A stretch of 64,000 nucleotides of DNA from positions 1 to 64,000 of IMG/VR virus record IMGVR_UViG_3300044922_000409. One strand, given 5' to 3'. The translations under genes and the position numbers were made by a program. The DNA comes from a virus. A model generated the notes under the pieces. The model ran no database searches. It was not told the origin of the DNA and saw only the letters and a program-made list of their open reading frames with translations. The stretch's first letter is position 1. Each line of letters begins with the position of its first letter. Below, one piece after another: positions 18,962 through 52,900 of the stretch.

Positions 18962-21900
18962 TTACGAATGTAATCTATCTTGTGATAAACTTCGAGTTGC
19001 GCTAATTTGTTTTTGGCTATTAGTACTAATTTTATCAGTATGTTGTGCCATTTCTATCATATGTTTATTTAACTGCATCAATGCATCATGAAGATCTTTT
19101 AACGTAATTTCTTTTACCATCATTGTTGCTGGTTGTTCTTGTGGTTTAGGCGGTACTACTGGTGTTTCCGGCGGTTTAACCTGTGATGCCATTGCCCGTT
19201 GCATATCTACAGGTGATAATTGCGCCTGCATAGTAGCCGGCGGTTTAATTTGAGACCGAGATTGTTTTAGTTCAGCATCTAATCTAGTATTAAACTCTTT
19301 AAATGTTTCAAGACCACCTACATGCGGAGTTGCTTTAACTTCAGCAGTTGCAGGTTCTTTTTTAATGTTTTCTTTCAAATTAGGATTAGGTTTATACATT
19401 CCTGAATTCTTCTGACGGTCAATCTCCTTATTTAATTCGCTATTTTCATCTGCTCTACGGGCAGCAATAGCTTCTGGAGTATTCATAGCTTTTAATCTAG
19501 CAGCATTTTCTGCAGGAGTTTCTTGTTTAACATCTTCATATTTTACATTTCCACTAGACGCTGCAGGTTTATTAGATGATTTAAACATTCCGGATATTGA
19601 TGAACCTAAATCTTCAAATACACTAGTAGCTTTTTCTTGAGAAACTTTGCCAGGAAACACTTGCGGTTCAATTGGTTTTTCTGGGGGTTTGGGAAGTTTT
19701 TTCTTTGCAGACTCCGGTCCATGTTCTGCCATAAATTTCTTTTCATCCAATAATGCCTGTGATACTTGTAAAGATTTATGTTCATCATCTTTTTTATTTT
19801 TAATAACTGCATTTTTAACAGATTCTTCGCCGTGTTCTTTTAATCTGCCTTTTATTTTAATTAAATCTTCTTCATATGATAGTGCAATCTTTGCAACTTC
19901 TTCTTTTTTCTTAGCTAGTCGTTCAGCTGCTTCAGCTGATGGTTTAGTATTTGCTGCTTTCATTTCTTCAAAATCAAAAGATGCATTTTCTAATGCTTCT
20001 CTTTTCTTCATTAATGCAGTGCTAGCAGCAGATGGCCCTAATTTTTTCTCGGCGGCTTTGCTAGATTCACTAAGATCCATTTGTGCCATACCAATTTTAG
20101 AAAGATCACCACTTTTTAATGCTTGATTAAACTTAGCCATATTAGTTAAGCTTTCATTAAGTTTTGATACATCTGGCATTTTAGGTGGTTCAACTGCAAT
20201 TTTTGGTTGTTGTTCTTTAACGGCAGTTGCTTCTCTTTCTTTTTTCTCGTTAGCTAGTGTTTCTTCACGTGCTTTCTTTTCTTTTTCTGCTTCTAATGCT
20301 GCTTTTGGCGCAAATTGTGCTTGTTGAGCTTTGACAATTGGAAGATCATGCATAGCATCTTCATCTTTGCGACCTTTAAGTTCAGCAATTTTGTCATTAA
20401 AGAATTTTAACTTACCTTCGCGTGCTTGTTTTTTAATAGTAGCAGTTAATTCCTCGCCAGTTTCTAACTCTTGCATCTCTGCATTTGTCATTTCATCACG
20501 AGCGTCTTTTAACCCAGATGCTGCAATAGGTTTTGCTGATAGTGTTTTTGGCTTCTCAATATCAACCGGTTTAAATTCAGGAACCTTTGTGCCTGGATTT
20601 ATTTTTTCTATTAAGGCGGTCATTTTGTCAGATGATGCCTTAAATGCAGTTTCAATAGCAGACATTGGTTTTTCAACTGGTTTTGCTGGTTCTATTACTT
20701 TAGGTAACGCAGAGTCGGCTTGATTTTTATATTTTGCTTGTGCTGCAGCGTCTACCTCTTTGATTCGTGCTTGTATTGTGTCGTTAATTGATTTTGCATC
20801 AGCATTTACTACTGCAGATTTAACTTCAGGTGGTTTAACTTCAGCAGGTTTAACTTCAGATTTAACTTCAGGTGGTTTAACTTCAGCAGGTTTAACTTCA
20901 GATTTAACTTCAGGTGGTTTAACTTCAGCAGGTTTAACTTCAGGTTTAACTTCAGGCGGTTTGGCTATTGCAGTAGCGTGTTTAACTATTTCATGCGGGT
21001 TAATTTTGTCAAAAGTTTTAGTTACTTGCTCATTAAATTTTGAAGTAATATCACTAAAATTAACAGCGGTAAGTTTTTCAGTAATCCTAGTTAATTCTTT
21101 AACTATGCCTTGCATTGATGCAGTAACACTTGCAAATGTCTTAGTAAGCTCATCAGGTGTGCCACCGGCTGTTTTTGTTTCAGCAGTTTTTGATTCGTCA
21201 ACAACAGGAGATGCAGTATCTACAGTAGGTGCAGCCGGTGCAACTGCTTTTATATCAGCAGTATCAGTTGCAGGAGGTGCAGCCGAACCAGCTTTTTTAT
21301 TCATGTTAGTTAACAAATCCGTTGGTATTAATTTTTCAACATATCGACGCATCTGTGATTCAGTTGCAACTAACTCATTTCCATGTAGCTCTGCCGGAGA
21401 ACCTTTAGGATCAAAGTTTTCAAACATATCTTTGAATCCGCCATTACCGTTTAAGAAATTTTCAAATGTAGGTGATCCAGATGCACGGTGTGCAGGTGTA
21501 ACCGGAGCTGCCATTTCTTCTGGTGTAGTTTTCTTGTTAGATGCAGGTGATGCAGCATACGCTTGTTCTAATGTTTTTGAAAGGTGTTCGCTTGGAACCG
21601 AAAGAGCACCTGCTATTGTATTTTTAATACCGCCTTCTTCTTGTGTTCTAGGTCTTAAAATATCAGCTAATGCGTCTTGTTTTCCAATTAACCTGCCAGT
21701 TGATTCAGATAGTTTTCCAAAATCAGTAGCAACGCCGGCGGTTGCATCCTTAAATGATCGATTAACTTCGTTTATTGTAGTGCCGAGTTTAGATTGATCG
21801 CCAAAATCATGACCTTCTGCATTTTTACCAGCCATATTTTGTTGAACTTCTTTAGTCTGGCCTGCACGCGCTTCTTCCATTCCTATATTGCCGCGAGTTG

Positions 21901-23089
21901 CATTATATACTTCTTGTTTCTTTGCTAATGCTGCTCCTAATTCAAGGTTTCCAGTTAGTCCTGCACGAGTTTGATCTGCAAATCCACCTACTGCAACTCT
22001 AGCAGTATCTAAAAATTGTTTAGAATGCATTTGCTCGTCAACTGCGGCATGTGCTTTATCTAATGCAATTTTAGCATCTTGTTTTTGTTGGTCAGTAGAT
22101 GCAGCCATTTGTAAACGCACTGCTTTTTCTAATTCAACGCCGGCTGTACCCAACGATGCCATTTTATCAGCACCTTCTTTTGTACGAATACCGCCTGACA
22201 TAATTTCGTCTGCTACATCTTGTACAACAGGACCTAATGATCGTAAATTAACCTGCATATCTTGATACTGATTAAACTTATCTTGATCCATTTCCATTAA
22301 GGTTGCTTGGATTGTTGCATTTTTAGTTCTAGCAGCTAAGTCATCAACTTGTGCTTGTCTACTTAAACCAGTGATACGAGTAGTTTCTTCCATAGCAGCT
22401 GTTAAATTAATAGCTGCTTCAACTGCTTCTTTTTGTGCTTTTACAGTAGATAAATCTAATCCTTTGCGGTTAGCTGCTGATGATAGAGCAACTTGGCTAA
22501 CTTCATCTGCAGATAACCCCATCTTCTTAAGTTGATTAACAACTCCGGATTCTTGTAACTGTTTATCCATTTCAAGCCAATTAGCTTGACTACGATTAAT
22601 AGTAGATCCAACGCCACTTAATGCGCTAGCACCTTCTTTCATCATACGATTGTATTCGTCTTGGGTCATACGAGCGCCGGTAATTGCTCGATTGTATTCC
22701 CCTAGGTTGTTATTCCAATTAGCACCAACTTTGCCGGCTTCGTTCATGTTATCGTTGGTCTTAATAAGAGCACCGCCGAGATCTTGTGTAATTGCACCTA
22801 GTGATTTACCAATTCCCGGAACTGCAGCCGCTAGTATGTTGCTAAACATAGTAACTGCATTGCCGGCATTCATCGAGCCTTCAGCTAACTTAACAAATCC
22901 ATTTGAAATTCCACTAATCGCAGAGTTAATTTTATTAGCAGAATCACCGCCCATGCTGCCGCTGCTACTTCCACTACTGCTGCCGCTACTTCCTCCACCG
23001 CCCAGGCCTCCAGGACTACGAGCTAATTGTCCAAGCAATCTGTTAGTTTCTGTTACTTGGGCTAGTGTTTGTTCTTCAATTGATGCCAT
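18962..23089 (-). CDS. Probable tail tape measure protein
   Basis: A 1375-aa protein. A Gly/Ser linker (about 28-50) is followed by a hydrophobic stretch (82-113, VTMFSNILAAAVPGIGKSLGA) and a long helical domain to about residue 490 (GYNRMMKEGASALSGVG..., AINLTAAMEETTRITGLSRQ), as in the N-terminal parts of phage tape measures. Then comes SPAELHGNELVATESQ (about 560), a motif like the P-E-L/GxELV segment of many tape measures, a Pro/Glu/Val/Lys repeat (about 711-757) and further charged helices. T4 gp29 is 590 aa. If this protein sets tail length at about 0.15 nm per residue, the tail would be near 200 nm. The call rests on architecture and on adjacency to gp26; a large internal virion protein is the alternative. 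Confidence 0.6.
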   Translation of the reverse strand: MASIEEQTLAQVTETNRLLGQLARSPGGLGGGGSSGSSSGSSSGSMGGDSANKINSAISGISNGFVKLAEGSMNAGNAVTMFSNILAAAVPGIGKSLGAITQDLGGALIKTNDNMNEAGKVGANWNNNLGEYNRAITGARMTQDEYNRMMKEGASALSGVGSTINRSQANWLEMDKQLQESGVVNQLKKMGLSADEVSQVALSSAANRKGLDLSTVKAQKEAVEAAINLTAAMEETTRITGLSRQAQVDDLAARTKNATIQATLMEMDQDKFNQYQDMQVNLRSLGPVVQDVADEIMSGGIRTKEGADKMASLGTAGVELEKAVRLQMAASTDQQKQDAKIALDKAHAAVDEQMHSKQFLDTARVAVGGFADQTRAGLTGNLELGAALAKKQEVYNATRGNIGMEEARAGQTKEVQQNMAGKNAEGHDFGDQSKLGTTINEVNRSFKDATAGVATDFGKLSESTGRLIGKQDALADILRPRTQEEGGIKNTIAGALSVPSEHLSKTLEQAYAASPASNKKTTPEEMAAPVTPAHRASGSPTFENFLNGNGGFKDMFENFDPKGSPAELHGNELVATESQMRRYVEKLIPTDLLTNMNKKAGSAAPPATDTADIKAVAPAAPTVDTASPVVDESKTAETKTAGGTPDELTKTFASVTASMQGIVKELTRITEKLTAVNFSDITSKFNEQVTKTFDKINPHEIVKHATAIAKPPEVKPEVKPAEVKPPEVKSEVKPAEVKPPEVKSEVKPAEVKPPEVKSAVVNADAKSINDTIQARIKEVDAAAQAKYKNQADSALPKVIEPAKPVEKPMSAIETAFKASSDKMTALIEKINPGTKVPEFKPVDIEKPKTLSAKPIAASGLKDARDEMTNAEMQELETGEELTATIKKQAREGKLKFFNDKIAELKGRKDEDAMHDLPIVKAQQAQFAPKAALEAEKEKKAREETLANEKKEREATAVKEQQPKIAVEPPKMPDVSKLNESLTNMAKFNQALKSGDLSKIGMAQMDLSESSKAAEKKLGPSAASTALMKKREALENASFDFEEMKAANTKPSAEAAERLAKKKEEVAKIALSYEEDLIKIKGRLKEHGEESVKNAVIKNKKDDEHKSLQVSQALLDEKKFMAEHGPESAKKKLPKPPEKPIEPQVFPGKVSQEKATSVFEDLGSSISGMFKSSNKPAASSGNVKYEDVKQETPAENAARLKAMNTPEAIAARRADENSELNKEIDRQKNSGMYKPNPNLKENIKKEPATAEVKATPHVGGLETFKEFNTRLDAELKQSRSQIKPPATMQAQLSPVDMQRAMASQVKPPETPVVPPKPQEQPATMMVKEITLKDLHDALMQLNKHMIEMAQHTDKISTNSQKQISATRSLSQDRLHS
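20818..20958 (-). repeat. 42-bp tandem repeat in the tape measure gene
   Basis: About three and a half copies of a 42-bp, in-frame unit encode KPAEVKPPEVKSEV-type repeats, a stiff Pro-rich linker. Nearly identical copies suggest recent expansion or contraction. Confidence 0.85.
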
Positions 23090-23150: not shown

Positions 23151-23978
23151 ATGGCGAAGAACCCTTTAATCGATTATTTTAGACAACCAAAAATTTATAT
23201 TTCATTACCTTCAAAAGGAATGTATAATAAATTAGGGTCACTCAACGGTGATGCTACAAACATTCCAATTTACGGAATGACAGGCATGGATGAAATAATA
23301 ATGAAAACCCCTGATTCAATGTTATCAGGTGAGAGTACAGTTAAAATTTTTGAAAGTTGCTGTCCTGCAATTAAAGATGGCTGGGAAGTAACTGCATTAG
23401 ACACTGATGTATTATTAACTGCAATTCGAATTGCAACATACAGCAATATTATGGCAATTACACATACTTGCCCAAAATGCAGTGCTGAAAATGATTATGA
23501 TGTTGATCTAAGTACAGTAATTGAACATTTTGCAAAATGCGAATATCAAAATACAATAGAATTACCTGGATTACAATTAAAATTACAACCATTAACTTAT
23601 AAACAATCCACTGAATTTTCAATTCGTAATTTCCAATTACAACAACGATTATCAGCTTCGTATAAAATAGAAGATGCAGAACTACAAAATCAAGAAGTAG
23701 CAACAGTATTTGTTGAATTAGGACATATTCAAAATGATATGTATGCAGCAAGTATCGAATCAATTGATATCGGCACCGTAGTTGTAACTGAAAAACATTT
23801 TATCATTGAATGGCTAAAAAATTGTGATAAATCAGTGTTTGATACTATTCGTGAGCAGTTTGCAATTAACAAAGATTTATGGAAAATTCCAAATGTAAAC
23901 GTTAAGTGCGGTAGTTGTGATAAGGATTCGTCTGTTGCTATTGATTTAGATCAGACAAATTTTTTCGCTCCAGCCTAA
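23151..23978 (+). CDS. 26: Baseplate hub / tail assembly protein gp26
   Basis: A 275-aa homologue of T4 gp26 (208 aa), needed for assembly of the central baseplate hub. The N-terminus, RQPKIYISLPSKGMYNK...IPIYGMTGMDEIIMKTPD (about 11-55), is the family's conserved block. Two CxxC pairs (Cys107/Cys110 and Cys253/Cys256) suggest a zinc ribbon. The gene is led by a TATAAATA late promoter and CCGGAG. The last codons run over the heptamer TTTTTTC three codons before the stop; a -1 slip there enters the gp51-like frame and would give a fusion of about 349 aa. It is divergent from the probable tape measure, the place where tail assembly chaperones often lie. Confidence 0.85.
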   Translation: MAKNPLIDYFRQPKIYISLPSKGMYNKLGSLNGDATNIPIYGMTGMDEIIMKTPDSMLSGESTVKIFESCCPAIKDGWEVTALDTDVLLTAIRIATYSNIMAITHTCPKCSAENDYDVDLSTVIEHFAKCEYQNTIELPGLQLKLQPLTYKQSTEFSIRNFQLQQRLSASYKIEDAELQNQEVATVFVELGHIQNDMYAASIESIDIGTVVVTEKHFIIEWLKNCDKSVFDTIREQFAINKDLWKIPNVNVKCGSCDKDSSVAIDLDQTNFFAPA

Positions 23979-24021
23979 TTGGATTATCTAGGTCACAAGC
24001 TGGAGATGTTCTAATTAGGCT
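23960..24021 (+). other. Candidate -1 programmed frameshift signal (gp26 to gp51)
   Basis: The heptamer T TTT TTC (23960-23966), in the gp26 reading frame, has the canonical X XXY YYZ form. Five nt later a perfect 9-bp stem can form between AGCCTAATT (23972-23980) and AATTAGGCT (24013-24021); the gp26 stop TAA is inside its 5' arm. A second perfect 7-bp pairing, CTCCAGC (23968-23974) with GCTGGAG (23999-24005), interleaves with it, so a pseudoknot with a shortened second stem (23975-23980 with 24013-24018) is possible. The -1 frame is open from 23945 to the stop at 24197-24199 and contains the gp51-like sequence. Confidence 0.6.
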
Positions 24022-24034
24022 AGACGATGAAGTA

Positions 24035-24199
24035 ATGGCATTTAAACGCGAGCTTTATAGATTATGTTGGTATATGCGAGGTGGTGTATCAATTAACGAT
24101 CTCCTATACAACTTATCATATGAAGATCGTAATGCGATGTATTCAGTAGTTAAAGAAAATATTGAATTAACAAAGACGTCAAGGATGCCGTTACTTTAA
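24035..24199 (+). CDS. 51: gp51-like baseplate hub assembly protein (small)
   Basis: From the only ATG the frame encodes 54 aa, MAFKRELYRLCWYMRGG followed by SINDLLYNLSYEDRNAMYSV and ending KTSRMPLL. The WYMRGG...DLxYxxSxEDR pattern resembles the short gp51 proteins next to gp26 in aquatic T4-like phages; T4 gp51 itself is much longer (249 aa) and catalyses hub assembly. No ribosome site is visible before this ATG, while the frame stays open upstream through the gp26 stop back to 23945, adding IGLSRSQAGDVLIRLDDEV. This favours translation mainly as a C-terminal extension of gp26 by -1 frameshift. The stop overlaps the convergent gene by 4 bp. Assignment to gp51 is moderate; coding status is stronger. 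Confidence 0.65.
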   Translation: MAFKRELYRLCWYMRGGVSINDLLYNLSYEDRNAMYSVVKENIELTKTSRMPLL

Positions 24200-25113
24200 T
24201 CGGAATCTGCATATTTTAATACAAGATCACCTTGTTTATTTCGTTTAAAACGATCAGGGGTATATCCTTGTGCTTTATCTGACGCTTGTTGAGCAGCTAT
24301 ATCAGCAGGGTTTGTTGATGGTTTAGCAGTAGCAGTAGCATCAACTGGTTTATTAGTTGTTGCTGTTGCATTAGCAGGTTTTTCTGTTGCAGTAGGTTTA
24401 GTAGCTGTTGCGTCTATAGGTTTATCAATTGTAGCAGCTTGATCAGCAGGTTTTTCTGTTGTAGCTGCTGCATCAGCAGGTTTTTTAGTTGGCTCACCTG
24501 TTGCAATGCTGTCAGCTTCTGCAATTGCATCTTGCACCATTTTACTAAATTGGTCAACTGCTTGATTAGCTAATGCACCGACATCTTTAACACCGTTAAT
24601 TGTTCCAAATGTTAGAAATTTAGAAAGCATTATTCTGCCTTCTTCTGACGCAATTTTCTGAAACACGTATGTTTGTGCACCTGCAGATAATAAATTAATT
24701 GTATTTGCAATAACTGGCCCAACACCGGGAATAATTCGTATAAATCCAAGCAATGAGCTGATAGATCCAAATACTATTTTTGTTACTAATGCTGAGGCTA
24801 AAGATGAAATTAGCAAACCCATTTGGATATTATGTTCTTCGTTATAATCCATTTGAGCTTCTTTTGAATTTTTTGATTGTTTTAAAACATCGTTAGCATT
24901 TGACATATTTGTAAAATATGTATAAAACGGTTTAAGTAAGAAAAATAAGCCAGCTGCTTTTAATAATTTTAATGCCGCATTTGCAGCTGTAGAGAAGAAG
25001 CCCTCTTGCAATGGCTTAGACGTAGTAGCAGATGCAATTTCTGATAGTTTTCGTAGTTCTTGATGAATGAGATATTCATTCGGTGTTTTAGCAGTAATCT
25101 CGTATATTTTCAT
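24196..25113 (-). CDS. Membrane-segment virion-type protein
   Basis: A 305-aa protein beginning MKIYEITA, an N-terminus I recall from several proteins of aquatic T4-like phages. Hydrophobic segments lie at about 46-66 (AALKLLKAAGLFFLLKPFY) and 97-150 (MGLLISSLASALVTKIVFGS, then LLGFIRIIPGVGPVIANTIN). The last third is a low-complexity tail of about 11-residue repeats with the form KPxDATAT. This layout suits a membrane-interacting or pore-forming protein, for example an ejected internal protein; a lysis role is possible but there is no holin-like size. It has its own late promoter and is convergent with the gp51-like frame. No family is recognised. Confidence 0.65.
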   Translation of the reverse strand: MKIYEITAKTPNEYLIHQELRKLSEIASATTSKPLQEGFFSTAANAALKLLKAAGLFFLLKPFYTYFTNMSNANDVLKQSKNSKEAQMDYNEEHNIQMGLLISSLASALVTKIVFGSISSLLGFIRIIPGVGPVIANTINLLSAGAQTYVFQKIASEEGRIMLSKFLTFGTINGVKDVGALANQAVDQFSKMVQDAIAEADSIATGEPTKKPADAAATTEKPADQAATIDKPIDATATKPTATEKPANATATTNKPVDATATAKPSTNPADIAAQQASDKAQGYTPDRFKRNKQGDLVLKYADSD

Positions 25114-40500: not shown

Positions 40501-40975
40501 ATCTATCTCAGATGAAATAATTTATCATGCAGTTAACTATAAAATATTGTTCGGTGCAACTGCTGATCCGGAATTGCAAGCAGTATTTAAAATTACAAAA
40601 ACTCCAGGACAGATAATATCTGATAACGATATTAAATCGCAAGTAATAGTTGCAATTAATACTTTCTTTAATTTAGACAACTGGGATTTTGGAGATACAT
40701 TTTTCTTCACAGAGCTAGCAACATTTGTAATGAATCAACTAGCACCAAAAATTTCAAATTTTGTAATTGTACCTCGAAGACAAGGTTTAAATTTTGGTAG
40801 TTTATTCGAAGTTAAGTCATTAAGTAACCAACTTCTTATAAATGGAGCAACGGTTGATGATATTGAACTTATATCCGGAATCACTGCAACTAATATTAAA
40901 ACATCAAATGTAATGTCTCTTGATAGTACAATAAATCGTCAATCTATAACTAGTTCTACATATGGGAATATCTAA
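37538..40975 (+). CDS. 6: Baseplate wedge protein gp6
   Basis: A 1145-aa gp6 homologue, part of the (gp6)2-gp7 wedge core that holds the baseplate together. The N-terminus, DFQSYDFENLRRTMVDYIRQ followed by NYPEDFNDYIESSEYLALLD (28-67) and SVAFRVDLNARENFLELAER, is diagnostic of the family. Further blocks are APASYYTQNRMITGEDYNIC (about 425) and the C-terminal VIVAINTFFNLDNWDFGDTF FFTEL region (about 1030). T4 gp6 is 660 aa, so about 480 residues are added in the middle, with beta-rich sequence. The stop overlaps the giant gene (TAATG). Confidence 0.92.
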   Translation: MSATDRQNRLLVAEDWKKIYQSFRSADFQSYDFENLRRTMVDYIRQNYPEDFNDYIESSEYLALLDVIAFLGQSVAFRVDLNARENFLELAERRDSILRLSQLVSYNAKRNIPAHGLLKFTSVNTTQDIYDSNGNSLSGQTVTWNDSSNPIWYDQFIKVINAALPGTQRFGNPVDSSIIYNIPTEQYTFQSATADVPIYAFSKTVAGRSMNFEVTSTTFAGQDYIYEEAPKLKNRLSCVYRNDGHGYGSAGSGFFFNFTQGTIGHSQFTVDQPRSNDLINIASTGINNTDVWLYRLDKNGDETETWTQVPSLKGNNIIYNSVNKNIKNIFGVTTRANDAITLNFSDGTFGNMPYGTFKVYYRLSNGLSYTVNSKDIRNVSITIPYMSNMGQQESLTISLALSTTITNAESSETNASIKANAPASYYTQNRMITGEDYNICPLSVSQQVLKVKAVNRSSSGISRYFDLVDPTGKYSSTNLFADDGVIYKDNYESYTKFSYINKTDIEGVIYNVVNNILTKSELRNFYYSKYTDFAKLGSNLQVGWRAVTSDVVSSTGYIYDLQATGEVYKVGPQYTVSDLKYVTLGSLIKFVAPTGYYFNLDNQNKLEEAISVNYAPNTSLYIWAAVVAIVNDGRANGIGVLSSGAGPITLNVNIADGAIISQIIPKCRTTLDLNVINTMIDLIFENKSFGLSYNAAQQVWQLVFESNIDSTSQFSLINQGSITNTQKDASWMLLFTTDNEYYTITSRETRYIFESDSQIRFYFDSSEKVYDSRTNSVVRDKIKVLSINKQISSYNSYTTDFVWDVVSEYIGLDGYVDNKKIVVSFADSDDNGIADDPELFTNLVLYQQYILQEKYQISLGQEDYRYVANNSKVWIIPELTTIGDVGLYYYIPGSNTVTQASSTGVLEPTLDYKVYEGRANLKFQYIHNANYESRIDPGVSNIIDVHVLTKGYDTAFRQWINGAAISKPLPPSADELYNTLSPSLNLIKSISDEIIYHAVNYKILFGATADPELQAVFKITKTPGQIISDNDIKSQVIVAINTFFNLDNWDFGDTFFFTELATFVMNQLAPKISNFVIVPRRQGLNFGSLFEVKSLSNQLLINGATVDDIELISGITATNIKTSNVMSLDSTINRQSITSSTYGNI

Positions 40976-43900
40976 TGGTTAACAAAAAAATAACTTTACC
41001 TAGAAGTACAGCAACCGATACAAGCAACAGTGATAATACTGCAAATTTTTTACCTAGTTATTACCGAACAGACACTAATAAAAAATTCTTACATGCAACA
41101 ATTAATCAGTTAACCCAGCCGGGTACTGTAAAAAAAGTTAACGGGTATATTGGTCGATTAAATGCTAAAGCATCCTCATCGGCTGATATTTTTATAAATG
41201 CGCCTACTCAGGTTAGGCAAAATTATCAATTAGAACCTGGGTTAGTAATAACTGATAATATAGATAATACTGTATATCTAAAAGATTATCAAGATTATAT
41301 TAATCAGTTGCGTGTTAACGGCGCAAATGTATTTGATCATTCTAGATTAAATAATCAAGAATTTTACAGTTGGGATCCACATATCGATTGGGATAAATTT
41401 GTTAATTTTCAAGATTACTATTGGTTACCAAACGGTCCTAATACTATTAGTATTAGTCATGCTGCTACGACTGACCAAAGTGTATTTACAGTAACGATTG
41501 ATACGGCTGGTCTTGATTCTGCATATGTGTTTACACCTAATGGATTTAATAGAAATCCAACAATTACATTATATAGAGGAAAAACTTATGAATTTAACAT
41601 TCATAGTACTGACAACGTGTTTAGTTTTAAAACTATTCGAACTGAAGGTACACTAAACCGATACATAACACCTACATTAGATAACAATTCAATTACTTCG
41701 GGTAAAATTATATTTACCGTACCGTATAATGCACCGGATGTGTTATTTTATGTAAGCGAATCTAATATTGATCTTGGTGGCACAATTAGTATTTTAGATA
41801 TTAACACTAGCGGATTCATTGATGTTGCTACTGAAATTATAGGCAAACAATCATTCCAAATGCCAAATGGTAAATTATTAAGTAATGGTATGTGTTTATT
41901 GTTTACTGGTGAAGTAACACCGGCATTATATGCAACCGGAAAATTTTATGTTGAAGGTGTTGGCACTGCTATTAAATTAATTCCAGAGCGTGATTTAGAA
42001 ATAATTGCACCATATACTACCTCCGAAATGATTTTATTTGATGCAACCCCGTTTGATACAACACCATTTAGTGATGCTACTACATTTGCAGGAAATCCAG
42101 ATTATATTGTAATTAACAGAAGCAGTACTGACAAAAATCAGTGGAGCCGATATAATAAATGGTTTCATAAAAGTGTAATTGAAACTAGTGCTGCAATTAA
42201 TGGAATAACTGCAACTGTTGATCAGTCTATGCGTGCAGTTAGACCTATTATTGAGTTTGATGCTAATTTAAAATTATTTAATTTTGGAACAACTGCAATT
42301 ACTGATATCTCAATTATTGATCGGTATACAACTGATGCATTTTCAACAATTGAAGGATCACTTGGTCACACCGTTGACAACATCCCATTACAACATGGAC
42401 AAAGAATTATATTTACTGCTGATACTGATCAATTAGTAGCAAACAACGTGTATCGTGTTGAATTTATTGATGTGAAACATACAACTGACGGATTCGGAGT
42501 TTCTAATAGTCGACAAATTCGACTTGTATTAGAATTAAAACCATCTGAAAATCAAGTTGTATTAGTGCAACAAGGCACAATATCACAAGGTACTATGTTT
42601 TGGTATAATGGTAATACGTGGATTAGTGCGCAACAAAAAACTAAACTAAACCAACCACCATTATTTGATGTAGTTGATAGTAATGCAATAAGTTTTGGTA
42701 ACGGTGCTGTATATCCAGGTACTACATTTAAAGGTACTTCTGTATTTTCGTACAAAGTTGGTACCGGAATAGCAGACAGCAAATTAGGGTTTCCTCTATC
42801 GTATAAAAATATTAATAACATTGGTGACATAAATTTTAATTTTACATTATTAACTGATATGTTTCAATATGATCAATCAAGTAACACTATTACAAAAACA
42901 ACAGATGTAGGATATTTAATTAAAACTGTTAACGGACACGTGAATTATGTTAACGGCTGGCAAACAAGTTCTGTATCAAATGTGCAACCAGCGGTTCGCA
43001 TTTACAGAAATTCAGAGATGACAAATAATTTTGATATAGATATTTTTGATACGTTACCTGCATTAATAGACATTAGTGTTCGCGTTTATATAAATGGCAT
43101 GCGATCACCAGCTAGTAATTGGGTTATTAAAACTACGGCAACTAGCGTTACAGTTGGCCAAGTGCCGTTGACACAATATCAAATTGTGTTTAACACACCT
43201 GTGTTGTTAACTGATTGCGTAACTATAAAAGTGTATTCGCGTACTCCTATTAACACAAATGGGTTTTATGAAATTCCGATTAATTTACAACATAATCCAC
43301 TAAATGGTGTACTGACTGAGTTTACACTAGGCGAAGTAATTGATCACGTTGATAGCATTATTGATAACATTTATACAGGTACATCATTTGTTGGTATATT
43401 CCCGGGTCTTAGTAATTTGAGAGATTTAGGAAATGTAACACAATTTGGTACAAAATTTGTTCAGCATAGTGGACCACTTAGTTTGCCAATGTATCATTTA
43501 ACATCGGCTAACAATGTAATTAATGCGATTGAAAAATCAAGAGACGACTATTGCAAGTTTAAACGTGCATTTATGGTGTTAGCTGAAACATTAGGAGTAG
43601 ATACCCATCCTATTAATCATGTAAATTTAATTTTGCGTACACTAAATGCAGATGTTCCAGCAACTGCTCCTTACTACTTTAGTGACATGGTACCATATGG
43701 AGCGTATTCGAAAATTGATGTTACTGTTCGTGACCCTGAATCTAATATTTTCTCATTATCTAAAGTGTTTAGTTTATCAGAATTGTCAACTTCGGCAGTT
43801 CTTATATATGTAAATGACCGGCAGTTATTGCACGGTAAAGATTATACGTTTAGCAATCAAGGATTTGTAATTGTTACTGCACTATTAAACGTTGCTGATG

Positions 43901-46900
43901 TAGTATCAGTGTATGAATATAGCACTACTGACGGATGTTTGATACCAGAAACACCTACTAAGTTAGGTATCTGGCCAAAATATGAACCAAAAATATTCTT
44001 AGATACTACATTATTAACTCCTTCAAGAATGATACAAGGACATGACGGTAGTTTAATATTAGCATATAACGACTATAGAGATGATTTGATTTTAGAATTA
44101 GAAAAGAGAATTTATAATAACATTAAAATTAAATATGATCCTACTATTTTTGATATATGTGATATGATTCCTAGTTATGCTCGAACTACTGATTATAGCT
44201 TAGACGAATTTAATTTAGTGTTATCTGCAAACTATTATCAATGGTCAACACATGTTAAAAAAGATTTTTCAATACCTTCATTACCTGGAACTAGAAATAA
44301 TCCTTTTACATTTAATTATAGCAGCAATTTTGCTCCAGATGGTCGACCAACACCTGGATTTTGGAGAGGTATTTATCAATGGGTGTATGATACTGATCGT
44401 CCACACTTATGCCCGTGGGAGATGCTAGGAATTAGCGAAGAACCAATTTGGTGGAGTACAGTATACGGATTGGCACCGTACACTAGTGATAATTTAGTGA
44501 TGTGGAATGATATTAGTAACGGATTGGTAAAAGAGCCAGATCAACCAATTGTTAAGAAAACTAAATTTGTTAAATCTTTTTTGATGAATTATTTGCCCGT
44601 TGACAGCAATGGTCGATTAGTTAGTCCATTAACAAATAATATTGCTAGCGGAACATCATCAAGTGATGTTCAATTATCCTTTAAGTTTGGTGATGTATCG
44701 CCAACTGAAGCTGCTTGGAGACGTCATTCACATTATCCATTTAGCGTATTAAAAACACTATTATTATTAAAACCTGCAATGACAATGGGATTAACACTAG
44801 ATAGAAACCGAATTGTTCGAAATTTAACAGATCAATTAATATATTTAGATACTGGTGTACGTATTAGACTGGCTGATATTAAATTGCCGAGTGTGTATTT
44901 AAGTAGCACCCGGGTACAAACTGCAGGTCTTATAAATTATTTGGTAAATTATATTGATTGTAATGAATTGTCGTTATACAATGAATATAAAAATAATTTA
45001 TCAAAAGTAACTGCGCAGTTATGTTATCGTGTTGGTGCATTTACTAGTAAAGAAAAGTTTAATTTATTATTAGAATCAAAATCACCGTCGTCAGTTGGCA
45101 ATATTTTTATACCACCAGAAGATTATAAAGTAATAATGAATACGTCATCTCCGATTGCATCATTAGTATATAGCGGTGTTACTATTACTAAAGTAGAAGG
45201 TGGATTCGAAGTTACCGGATATAGCAAAACCCAACCGTATTTTACATACTATGCTAGTTATTATAGCGGTTCAACTATTACAGTTGGCGGTATTTCTGCA
45301 GTATATTCCGTATGGACACCGTACCATTATTATGTAGTTGGATTTGTAGTTAAGTATAACAATTCATATTGGCAAACTAAAATTTCACATAATTCAACTG
45401 AATATTTTTCAATAGATCATTTCACACTGTTACCATCTATTCCGATTGTTGGTGGTTCTAAGGTTGAATTTAGAACACGTTGGGAGTCTACTGAAATAAT
45501 TGTACCATATGGTACTAAATTTTCGTCAATACAAGAAGTAACAGATTTTTTATTAGGTTATGGAAAATGGTTAACAGATCAAGGATTTGTATTTGATGAC
45601 TATAACGATCAGTTAGGGTCAGTATCCAATTGGGAAACTAGTGCTAAAGAATTTATTTTTTGGACTGCAAACAATTGGGGAGTATCTCAACAGTTATGGG
45701 ATGATTGGGTACCGGATATGTTAATTACCTTTGATACAATTGTTCGATATACCGGAGATTATTATCGTGCAATTAGAACAATGCAAGAACCAGTATTTAA
45801 TGAGACTGATTATGAATTAATAAACGGTCTTAGTTCTAATGGAAATTCAGTCATAACACTAAGTCCGGCTGCAACTAAACTGCAATTTAAAACTATTTTA
45901 AGTGTAGTAGACGATATTACTAATCCGGATTATGTGTATGAGATGTTTAATGCGCAAGGTAGTCCAATTCATTCTAATCTAGTAAATTCATATAGGTCAG
46001 GTAACATAGTAAGTTATTCCACTACTGATATTAACGCATACATTTATTGTGCTAGTTTTTACTTAGTGCAAAAAGAACATGTTATTGTGATGAATAATGC
46101 AACTATGTTTAATGATGTAGTTTATAATCCAGAAAGTGGATATAAACAAGACAAAATTAAAGTGTCCGGATATGTTAGCATTGAGTGGAATGGCTCATTA
46201 AATGTTCCGGGATTTATCGTAGACAGTGCAATCATACATGAATGGGAAATATGGAAAGATTATTCAGTAGGTGATATTGTTAAACACCAAACATTTTATT
46301 ATAGTGCAAGTAAATTTTTGTCAGGTACACAAAAATTTAATGATTTAGACTGGATTAAGTTAACAGAAAAACCAACTGCAAAATTATTGCCAAACTGGAA
46401 TTATAAAGCAACTCAATTTACTGATTTCTACAGTTTAGATAGTGACAATTTTGATGCAGCTCAACAAAAAATGGCTCAGCATCTTATTGGATACCAAAAA
46501 AGACAGTACCTAGAAAATATTATTCAAGATGACACTAGTGAATTTAAATTTTATCAAGGTATGATAATTGAAAAAGGTACAACAAATGTTCTTAACAAAC
46601 TTTTTGATGTTTTGAGTCTCGATGGTCAAGAAAGTATGGAGTTTTATGAAGAATGGGCAATTAGAACCGGACAATACGGCGCAAGTTCAGCATATAATAC
46701 TGTTGAATTTATATTAGACGAGGCATTAATAAGAACTAATCCGCAAGGAGTTGAATTAGTTACGACTACACAACAACTTGATGATCGTATTATTCGACAA
46801 ATTCCGTCTGATGTGTATGTAAAACCATTAGGATATACTCCGTATATTTGGCCTGCATTATCGTCAACGTCATCTATATTACGATCAAGCGGCCATGTTA

Positions 46901-49900
46901 GAGCTGATGAAGTAACAGTTACCATTCGATCACCTGAAGAGTTAACGACCCTTGATCCATCAGTATTACCTATTAACTCGTATGTGTTATGTACCTTTGA
47001 AAATGCAAGTTGGAATGTGTACCAAATTATATCATCTAAGTTATCACTTATTGCAATAACAATGATAGATGATACCACTGTAGAAATAACAGTTAATTCT
47101 TACATTAATTTTGATGTTGATTCATATGTTGGTATTAAACACAACTCGTTTAATTCATTTTATAAAGTAGTAAGTATCGGAACAAACAATTTTAGAATTA
47201 ACATAGCTGGATTAAAGATTCCGACTAATGTTAAAACTATTTCACTTGTTACTGCAAAATCTCGTCGTGTAAGTTCAATTGATAATATGAATTATACGTT
47301 AGCAGATTTAGGAACATCATCATTATTATGGGCAGATAACACATTAGCTAATGATCAGACATGGGCAACTTGGAAACATCAATCTGTTTATACAAGAAAT
47401 ACGGTGTTTAATCAACAGTTAATTGATAATTTAAAATTTGGAAAAAGCGTTGCATCAACTGCAGACGGTAACTTAGCAGCAATCACAACTGCGCTTGGCG
47501 AGGTTATGATCTACGATAGGTTAGGTAGTTCTAAACCATGGACTCTCCGCCAAGTAATTAATAAACCGTTTATATCATCAGTTACTCCTATTGCAGACAC
47601 AATTGCAACTGTTGTTGCTATATCTAAAGATGGTAAATGGCTAGCAACTGGATCACCAACTGCTAGTTTTGCAACGGTGTCGATGCCAATGACTGGTTTA
47701 AATGTAACTGATATTAACGGTTTAAATACCGAGTATCCTGGGCAAGGTGTTGTGTCAATATACGAAAACACCAATAACATGTTTACATTAGTTAACACAG
47801 TTACGAGCCCAATGCCACAGTCGCATGAAAATTTTGGATTAACTTTAGAATTTAGTATCGGTGCATCGCAATCATTGTTTGTAGGAACATCTCGTAGTTA
47901 TAGTACAGTTTATCGATTGCAGTATATAGAAACAATCCGTGCAGGTACATTGTATAATCCAAATGGCAGTACTTCAACTTCTATTCAAGTTTCGACAACT
48001 GTTGATATTGTACCTGGCATGCGTATTAGAGGTACAAATATTGATAACATTGTAACCGATGTTATTGATGATACAACTATCGTTCTTAATACGCCGTTGT
48101 CTGCAGATCCTGATGGTAATTTAATATTTTCTACATTAGAATGGAACTATTGTAATGAAGTATATTATAACGATCAGCCTGGTAGCAACTATGGTAAATT
48201 AATTAGGGTGTCAGCCGATGGCGCCATTTTAGTAATTTCTGCACCATATGGGTATGGGGTGTTTAGTTCCGGTCAGGTATACATATATGAATACGATATT
48301 ATGTTAAATTCTTACATACTGTTAACGACGTTGTCATCAACTAGTTCAAATTCACATAGTATTATGATGGAACAGTATGGTCAAAGTATTACGGTATCAA
48401 ATAACGGTGAATACATAGCAGTATCAACACAAATGAACACGTACACAGTTAACAGTAACTTACAGTGGGTACAGATGGCATCAATCGGAATAGTGTATAT
48501 TTATGAACGTAACGGAAGTGACTATAACTTGTATTATGAACCGATTGCTGCATCAGATATTACTAGCGGCTTTGGTACAGACATTCAATTCACAAATGAT
48601 TATTCAACACTTGTAATTTATAGTCAAAATACAGATAACACACACCGAATGTCTATTGATGCTGGCACAACTACATTTGATGCAGCAGAATTAGATACGA
48701 TTAATACTACTACTATTACATATACACTTACTGAGTTTGGCGGCATTGACGTCTATGATCGGTATGGACTGAGTTGGGTTATTAGTGAACGATTAACTAC
48801 TTTATCATTATCTGAAGATGGATACGGAACATCTATTGTTGCAACACCGGACAGTATACTAGTTAGTTCACCGTTTGCAGAAACTAGAGTTTCACAGTAC
48901 ATTAATTTGCAAACTGGCATCGTATACGATTATGTTAAACCGACCAACCAGTACAGTTGGACAATAAATCACTATCCTGTTGCCAAACCCGATGTAAAGA
49001 AAATTAAACAAGCATTTTTATATAATAGATCAACTAACAAATTAATAAAGCATTTAGATCTAGTTGATTCGTTACAAGGTAAAAATTCAAGTATTGCTGA
49101 TCAGGAAATTAAATTTAAATCGTTTTACGATCCAGCAGTATACAGTTCGCAAGTAGACAATCCAACATGGGTTAATGACGGTCTTGTAAATATAGATGAT
49201 GGAATAGCATGGACTACAAATCAAGTAGGTGCATTATGGTGGGATTTAAGAACAGCTAAATTTATTGATAGTTATACGGATGATGTAGTTTATAGAAACA
49301 GTACATGTAGTACACTTGCATTTGGTGCATCGATTGACATATATGAATGGGTTGAAACAGATCTATTACCGTCGGAGTGGGATGCAGAGGCAGACACTGA
49401 AGCAGGATTAGCAATTGGTATAAGTGGAAAGTCGTTATATGGTGATAATGCATTTAGTTACTGTCAACGATATAATAAGTTAACTCAACGTCTTATAAAC
49501 ACTTATTATTTTTGGGTTAAGAATAAAATAACAATACCGTCAATTCCGGGAAGAAATTTGTCAGCAAATACGGTATCTAATTTAATTGCAAACCCGCGAG
49601 GCGCAGGGTACGAGTATTTGGCATTAACTGGATTAAATTCGTTTAGTTTAGTAAATGTAAAATCACTATTACATCATACTGATGCGGTATTATCAGTTGA
49701 GTTTTGGAATGGCAATACTGTTGATCAAAATATTCATTCACAGTGGAAACTTATTAGCACTTCTCCTAGAACAACTATACCTGCAAATATAGAACAAAAA
49801 TGGTTTGATAGTTTGTGTGGGAAAGATTTAGGAAATCGAGTAGTGCCTGATCAATCGCTGCCAGTTAAATTGCAATATGGAATTGAAAATCGCCCACGCC

Positions 49901-52900
49901 AAAGTATGTTTATTAATCAATACGAAGCATTAAAGCAACTAATTGAGCAAACTAACATAGTGTTACGCTCAAATTTAATAGTTGATACTCGTAATATGGC
50001 AAACTTGCACAAGTATGATGAACTTCCAAGTGTAACACGCGGATTATACGACGACATTATTGATACTGATTTAGAATTACGATTTGCAATTGCAAAGTCG
50101 TATATTAAACCAGAAATTACACCAATAATAACAGATAGTGCAATTACTGGAATTATCGTAGTGTCTCCTGGACGCGGGTATTTAATAGCTCCGTATTTTA
50201 CAGTTATTGGCAGCGGTACAGGTGCAATTATTAAATCGGTAATTAATGTAGCTGGTCAAATCATTGGTTGTGAAATTATAAGATCAGGAGTTGGGTATAA
50301 TAGTACTACTACATTAGATATTAGAGATTATTCATTATTAGTTAAAAGTGATTCTGCATCAAATAACGGATGGAGTATATACGCGTATCAATCAGCTACT
50401 GAAACATGGAGTAAGACACTATCTCAAACTTATAATACTACCCGATATTGGGATTTAATTGATTGGTATGCAGATGGATATACACAATTTACAGCAATTA
50501 CTCATTCAATTAATACATATGCTGATTTAAATTTGATTAGTGTTAAAATTGGAGAACATGTAAAAATAAACACAACAAGTTCAAATCGATGGGTTCTGTT
50601 AAAAAAATATGCAAATGTAACATCAGTTGACTGGACACTTTCATATAAAGTTATTGGTAGTCAAAACGGTACAATTCAATTTAACTCATTATTATATGAT
50701 TTTAACGATACAGTAATTGGGTATGATGGATTGTTGTATGATTCTGGAGTATTTGATAACGGCGCATCAACCGAGTTACGGATAATTTTAAATTCAATAA
50801 AGGACGATTTATTAATTGACGACTTAAAATCACAATATTTAAGTTTATTTTTCTCTAGCATTCGATATGCAATGTCTGAACAGACATATATTGATTGGAT
50901 TTTTAAAACAAGTTTTGTTAATGTGACTCACAAAGTCGGTAATTTACATCAGTCAGTTACATATCGTAATGATAATTTATCAAATTTTGAGGATTACGTA
51001 TCAGAAGTAACACCGTATAGAAGTCAAATTAGAGAATATGTAAGTTTATATAATAATATTGATGTAGGTAAATTTGCAGTAACCGATTTTGATATGCCAC
51101 CTGCAATTATCAATGGTAGTATTGCCCCTGTAGTTGCGGTAATTAACAGTGATGATGAAATTATAGTATCCTCTGGAAATATAGATAGTTATCCATGGAA
51201 AAGTTGGGCCGATACTGTAGGTTTTTCAGTAGTATCAATAAAATTATTAGATGGAGGTTCTGGATATGTGTCTGAACCGACTATTAAAATTTCTGGAGCA
51301 TCCGGTTCAGATGCTCATGCAACTGCATTTATTTTAAATGGTAAAGTAAATCGAATTAATTTGATAACATATGGCTCAAAATATTTGTCAATACCGACTA
51401 TTTCGTTTGAAGGTGGGTTACGTGCAGGCGGAGTTTCTGCAAGCGCAATTGCAATTTTAGGAAACAGTGTTGTCCGATCTAATCTAGTTGCTGTTAAATT
51501 TGATAGAGTTACATCAACATACGATGCAATTACATTATCTCATACAGAAACATTTGTTGGAACCGGATCAAAATTGCAATTTCCGTTAATATGGGTTCCG
51601 AATGTACAAATTGGGTATTCTAGCGTAACAGTTAATGGAATTTCGGAATTGCGTGATAACTATACACTTCGAATTGTTACTTCTAATATTAACGGAACTG
51701 TAAAGTATTCTGGATCAATAACATTTGTAACAGCACCACCTGTTGGATACGAAATTAATGTAACATATATGAAAGACGTGTCGATGTTAACAGCTGCTGA
51801 TCGTATCCAGTATTTTTATAATTCTCCAGATGGCGGATTAGGACATGAACTATCACAGTTAATGACCGGTGTTGAATACGCCGGTGTGATACTTAGCGGA
51901 AAAGATGTTAATACTGCAAACGGTTGGGGAAGTGGCGGTTATTATACTGATAAATGGGATAGTTATAAATCGGTAATTGATGATTACAGTATAACAGTGT
52001 CTGCTGATGTGCATGATATTCAAATGCCATATGTACCAGTAGTTGGTACTATGCTAAATGTATATTATTATCCAGTAAGTATTGCAGATACATTTAATAC
52101 TGATGGTAGAACGTTAACTTACACCTATTCTAATTATGAACAAGTTCCGACTGTTAATTTATATAAGGTTGTATCAACTTCATTAGTAACTGCAGCTTTA
52201 AGTGATATAATTTATGTAACTTCGGTATACGGCATTAATGTTGGTGATACAGTTACTGATTTTACTAATATCAAATGGACTAAATTATTAAAAGCAACGT
52301 CTACTAGTATTGCTAACGGACATTATTATGTAACATTATCATCGATTGATCAGTTAACTATCGGTATGCCGTTATTATTCTTAGGTAATGAATTTAGCAA
52401 TTTGCAAGACGGATATACATATTATGTTAAAACTATCAGTGCTACTAACCGTATTACAATTAGTGGCACAGTAAGCGGACCTGAAATTGTATTAACTGCT
52501 GATACCGGTAGTATGACAGTAGTAGTTGGTGCATTCAAGTATGATACTACTGTAATTGAAGTTAATAAAATAACTAATGCTGTAACATTATCTCAACCAG
52601 TAAGTACTATTATATTAGAAAATACTTCATTAAAATTTGGTCGAACATTGTCAAAGTATCAAGATTTAGCAAATATCAGTAGAACTAAATTTACATTAAT
52701 GAAAAAATTACCAATTGGCATGATTATAGAAGTATCGGGTACAAGAGAAGCTATTAGACTTGATGATGATAATTATGGTAATATAACTACTATACCTAAA
52801 AATACTAATGCAATCATGTCACCGTATATTGCAGACGGTACCGGCGATATGATTATTATACCTACTAATTATGTAGATGTATACGGAAACACTCGTACAT

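Follow-up and report, generated by a model that had tools for sequence, protein, structure and literature searches.

The gp26 gene of an uncultured T4-like phage ends inside a second open frame, shifted by −1, that encodes a conserved gp51-like protein, and this raises the question of how that protein is made. The DNA analyzed here (64,000 nucleotides, hereafter the window) belongs to a 99.7-kb viral contig, IMG/VR record IMGVR_UViG_3300044922_000409, with a T4-like virion module that includes a portal, a head maturation protease, a major head protein, a late sigma factor, a gp5-like hub lysozyme, and a baseplate wedge. Our analysis makes it highly likely that gp26 is the short tail assembly chaperone (TAC-N) and gp26-51 the long one (TAC-NC), the latter arising by a −1 frameshift: judging from the sequence, ribosomes very probably move back by one base near the end of gp26, so that a small share of the protein copies carries an additional piece. 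The features on which this reading is built are listed below.

23151-23978, + strand: gp26, the short product (TAC-N), 275 aa, 30.9 kDa (Pfam, PHROG, AlphaFold2/Foldseek)
23960-23966, + strand: slippery heptamer T_TTT_TTC (sequence; invariant in 97/97 distinct junctions)
23966-24199, + strand: −1 frame, a 77-aa C-terminal domain (TAC-C, gp51-like), conserved from the first codon in relatives
23972-23980, + strand: 5' arm of the stimulatory stem, AGCCTAATT, which includes the gp26 stop codon (folding, alignment)
24013-24021, + strand: 3' arm of the stimulatory stem, AATTAGGCT (folding, alignment)
18962-23089, − strand: divergent virion structural protein, 1375 aa, candidate tape measure, starting 61 nt from gp26

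The heptamer and the −1 reading frame

The initial annotation had placed a TTTTTTC heptamer in the gp26 frame, three codons before the stop. It is present there, read as AAT TTT TTC and followed by GCT CCA GCC TAA, with the stop at 23976-23978, and no other in-frame TTTTTTC occurs in the window's 35 main genes, which total 18,844 codons. As had also been noted, the −1 frame stays open from 23945 to 24199, and it includes the motif WYMRGG...YEDR. Counted from 23966, the first codon after a −1 slip, it contains 77 codons up to its TAA stop (24197-24199), and the predicted fusion, gp26-51, has 349 aa and a mass of 39.6 kDa. The end of the −1 frame overlaps tail-to-tail, by 4 nt, with a convergent gene encoding a 305-aa protein (24196-25113, − strand).

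Related loci were found in viral contigs, 80 by the gp26 query alone and 60 by the −1 peptide alone, and were joined to cultured jumbo phages, giving 97 distinct junctions in all, the window's own counted. The gp26 search patterns left out the Phe-Phe site and therefore introduced no bias toward the heptamer. In this set, gp26 identity ranges from 69%, in contigs, down to ~28% in the jumbo phages 121Q, RaK2, PA5oct, Atu_ph07, and Phosso; the set comprises 39 lineages below 60% gp26 identity and 20 below 50%. The in-frame TTTTTTC was kept in every junction, 10-40 nt ahead of the gp26 stop. Only 18% of the other Phe codons of these gp26 genes are TTC, and the invariant TTT TTC after a T is thus not a matter of codon bias; the heptamer at the gp26 junction is more than chance. 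The −1 frame was open in all 94 complete junctions, and four residues of its domain (K27, W35, R38, and G39) are invariant in the corresponding alignment (A3). The length of the −1 domain is near-constant (77 aa in most), while the 0-frame stop drifts over 10-40 nt, and this combination is the hallmark of a constant shift point.

Two gp26 homologues from the Ackermannviridae, those of Vibrio phage VP-1 and Serratia phage 3M (loci L158 and L156), lack TTTTTTC. Their −1 frame is still open 167-176 nt past the stop, and close to the gp26 stop they have GTTTTTC or GGTTTTC, which may serve as another shift site.

Could gp51 instead be a short gene in its own right, with translation starting at 24035 or reinitiating after termination at the gp26 stop? 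Some records (Phosso, 121Q, and phi-ST2) do annotate it as a separate gene, and ATGA overlaps occur at the stop in a few relatives, such as loci L142 and L143. However, the conserved protein starts at the heptamer, and the first ATG of the −1 frame in the window (24035) lies 23 codons into conserved sequence and lacks a Shine-Dalgarno match, in keeping with the earlier remark that the −1 protein has no ribosome site of its own. Over these 23 codons, the entropy at codon positions 1, 2, and 3 was 1.21, 0.85, and 1.55, respectively, a protein-like pattern. Moreover, 76 of the 97 junctions have no −1-frame ATG ahead of the WYMRGG motif, and none of the ATGs that precede the conserved motif in the 97 junctions showed a Shine-Dalgarno match. 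A separate gene would also leave the invariant heptamer and the stem unexplained, and we consider it improbable.

RNA structure downstream of the heptamer

The two stem arms are perfect complements over 9 bp and begin after a 5-nt spacer, so that the stop-enclosing stem described in the initial annotation is indeed seen in the sequence. Folding of the RNA over 23967-24040 gave −23.9 kcal/mol (z = −2.75 against dinucleotide shuffles). In an alignment of 49 sequences from the window's clade (A1), the stem extended to 12 pairs with 93% of cells paired, a percentage inflated by the choice of loci keeping at least seven of the nine pairs, which does not affect the count of double changes; the alignment takes in all loci whose gp26 shares at least 48% identity with that of the window. 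Compensatory double changes were found in 22 cells; shuffles gave 5.4 and slid controls 2-11. Sliding one arm of the 49-sequence alignment made the stem collapse, and RNAalifold recovered the same helix unprompted. A stimulatory structure at the expected spacing of ~5-9 nt is therefore present, as a stem of 9-12 bp that covaries across the 49 sequences.

The initial annotation had looked to an alignment of related junctions for conservation of heptamer, stem, and relative frame. The heptamer and the open −1 frame were kept throughout, but the 9-bp stem was not kept in a sister clade, and the stimulator is thus not universal. More distant relatives have other local folds in place of the window-clade stem, and Atu_ph07 and Phosso form a different 10-bp stem (z-scores of −7.6 and −5.1).

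An interleaving 7-bp pairing, CTCCAGC (23968-23974) with GCTGGAG (23999-24005), had been put forward as a pseudoknot, but it exists on paper only. It overlaps the stem by 3 nt, so that at most 4 bp could coexist with it, and spacer-loop pairing in relatives was close to the shuffled level (4.8 versus 4.5 bp). A pseudoknot stimulator, which is optional for this class of signal, was therefore rejected, since its bases are common to the stem and its pairing is not conserved.

The site is also a homopolymer of six T, on which the RNA polymerase itself might slip, yielding mixed mRNAs that would be translated in the standard way. Transcriptional slippage, however, usually requires longer runs; in addition, a C ends the T6 run in 97 of 97 junctions, and a stem at 5-6 nt spacing with compensatory changes suits a ribosomal stimulator. 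This explanation appears very unlikely to us. A reading of the −1 frame as a relic that is not translated, or as an artefact of the overlap, has next to no probability, since, hypothetical or unannotated as it is in RaK2 and PA5oct, it is open in all complete junctions with conserved residues and its codon-position entropy is protein-like.

As features of the sequence, the heptamer, the frame, the conservation of the domain, and the stem at the gp26 junction are established. Returning to programmed ribosomal frameshifting, we infer slippage at the gp26 heptamer and, with it, its efficiency: most ribosomes would reach the gp26 stop and yield the 275-aa short chaperone, and a minority would pause at the stem 5 nt downstream, where the two tRNA-Phe would slip from U_UUU_UUC to UUU_UUU. 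The slipped ribosomes would go on in the −1 frame to produce the 349-aa fusion carrying the 77-aa helical TAC-C domain.

Homology of the products and the divergent neighbour

The short form belongs to the gp26 family, as it matched Pfam T4_baseplate (PF12322, E=7e-13), PHROG 150 (E=1e-16), and the T4 gp26 profile (hhalign, 95.9%). Its AlphaFold2 model (pLDDT 88.8) was matched by Foldseek to T4-like baseplate hub assembly proteins, with a best E-value of 1.5e-21. No PDB match to the fold of the short form, lambda-type chaperones included, was found at E<=0.001, and no solved chaperone appeared among the results of PDB sequence and fold searches with gp26.

The −1 domain was predicted as a helical unit (pLDDT 90.7). 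Taken alone, it had no credible match in Pfam, PHROGs, or NCBIfam and matched T4 gp51 weakly (hhalign probability 10%); the whole fusion was co-linear with T4 gp51 to residue 337, at a probability of 42%. The long form is the short form plus a C-domain, as in T4 gp51. T4 gp51 itself matches PF12322 and PHROG 150 and has a C-terminal extension, and is thus a gp26 paralogue laid out in the TAC-N/TAC-NC manner; T4 therefore holds the short and long forms as two genes. Conservation (the heptamer in 97/97 junctions), architecture, and gp26-family homology lend strong support, at the level of sequence, to the proposal that gp26 and gp26-gp51 are a tail assembly chaperone pair produced by a programmed −1 shift. 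From the lambda pair gpG/gpGT, we infer by analogy that the proteins act as chaperones of the tape measure protein: the short form would coat it, the extra domain of the minor form would recruit tail tube subunits, and both forms would be absent from the finished tail.

The initial annotation had also placed the tape measure gene divergently next to gp26. A divergent homologue of a virion protein does adjoin gp26; profile comparison neither supported nor excluded its identity as the tape measure. The 1375-aa protein is homologous to a virion structural protein of RaK2, 121Q, and PA5oct (hhalign E=3.2e-11), which in these three phages lies between portal and gp26 and is divergent from gp26 (portal-X><gp26 order). 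The PA5oct record marks this homologue as detected by mass spectrometry, and the RaK2 annotators described theirs as similar to tape measure. None of the proteins from the window, RaK2, 121Q, or PA5oct was labelled as a tape measure by PHROGs, and no homology emerged when the profile of the 1375-aa protein was compared with T4 gp29 or with the genes adjoining gp26-gp51 in S-RIM50 and phi-ST2. It is plausible that this neighbour is the tape measure protein.

The 1375-aa protein is longer than its complete homologues in relatives (roughly 640-960 aa) and contains a repeated proline-rich linker, KPPEVKSEVKPAEV. Elsewhere in the window, a single 4355-aa ORF (40975-54042, + strand) lies downstream of the baseplate wedge gene. 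In four relatives (L014, L025, L037, and L099), there is a local rearrangement: in place of the large virion protein, the divergent neighbour of gp26 is an MKVYEII-type protein that resembles the one encoded at 24196-25113 of the window.

Relation to described systems

A 2022 study by Vladimirov, Gautam, and Davidson, in Virology 566:9-15, reportedly found conserved frameshifting in several groups of T4-like phages and named genes 26 and 51 for T4. As summarized in later papers, the TAC-N genes of T4-like phages carry poly-T −1 frameshift signals (PMC12846349, citing Vladimirov et al. 2022), and some T4-like phages use separate short and long genes instead (PMC10885494, citing Vladimirov et al. 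2022). As far as these summaries represent that system, the one described here shares with it a gp26-family short form, a long form made by poly-T −1 frameshift, and the same gene family, but differs in having a divergent large virion neighbour and a stop codon inside the stem.

In cyanophage S-RIM50 and Vibrio phage phi-ST2, a TTTTTTC also lies 10 nt before the gp26 stop and is followed by an open −1 frame starting FFR; unlike in the window, gp26 and gp51 are annotated there as separate genes, the C-domains diverge, and the next gene is large and co-directional. GenBank MT409116 labels both gp26 and gp51 'tape measure protein assembly chaperone'. The 2022 report, as represented in the papers citing it, overturns the suggestion that frameshifting at gp26/gp51 had not been described in T4-like phages, and gp26-51 is a well-supported further case of an already described system. 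For one structural detail of the gp26-51 signal, no earlier description was found.

T4 genes 26 and 51 offer a homologous gp26 and, in gp51, a paralogue with a C-terminal extension, but the short and long forms are there two separate divergent genes without a frameshift. The lambda chaperones gpG and gpGT (reviewed in PMC5009743) resemble the present pair in having a short form and a −1-frameshifted long form, in domain order, and in likely role. They have no detectable sequence or fold match to gp26-51, and here the heptamer is U_UUU_UUC, unlike the lambda site, and the pair is not beside a co-directional tape measure gene.

It is conceivable, though we put it forward tentatively, that the jumbo and uncultured T4-like lineage formed by 121Q, RaK2, PA5oct, Atu_ph07, and the relatives of the window falls outside the 2022 work, with its invariant U_UUU_UUC, a stop-enclosing stem in the window's clade, and chaperones divergent from the tape measure and hence expressed from opposite promoters. 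A single exact slippery heptamer has persisted unchanged among phages with only ~28% gp26 identity. In the existing records, the −1 frame is a separate hypothetical gene in 121Q and XaC1 (loci L144 and L145) and was missed in PA5oct and RaK2 (L146 and L147). Annotation of jumbo phages thus overlooks a probable tail-assembly protein at the gp26 junction or breaks it in two, and the records of 121Q, XaC1, PA5oct, and RaK2 could become frameshifted CDS. T4 gp26 and gp51, mostly labelled baseplate hub proteins, would be better read as a chaperone pair, encoded in T4 by two genes.
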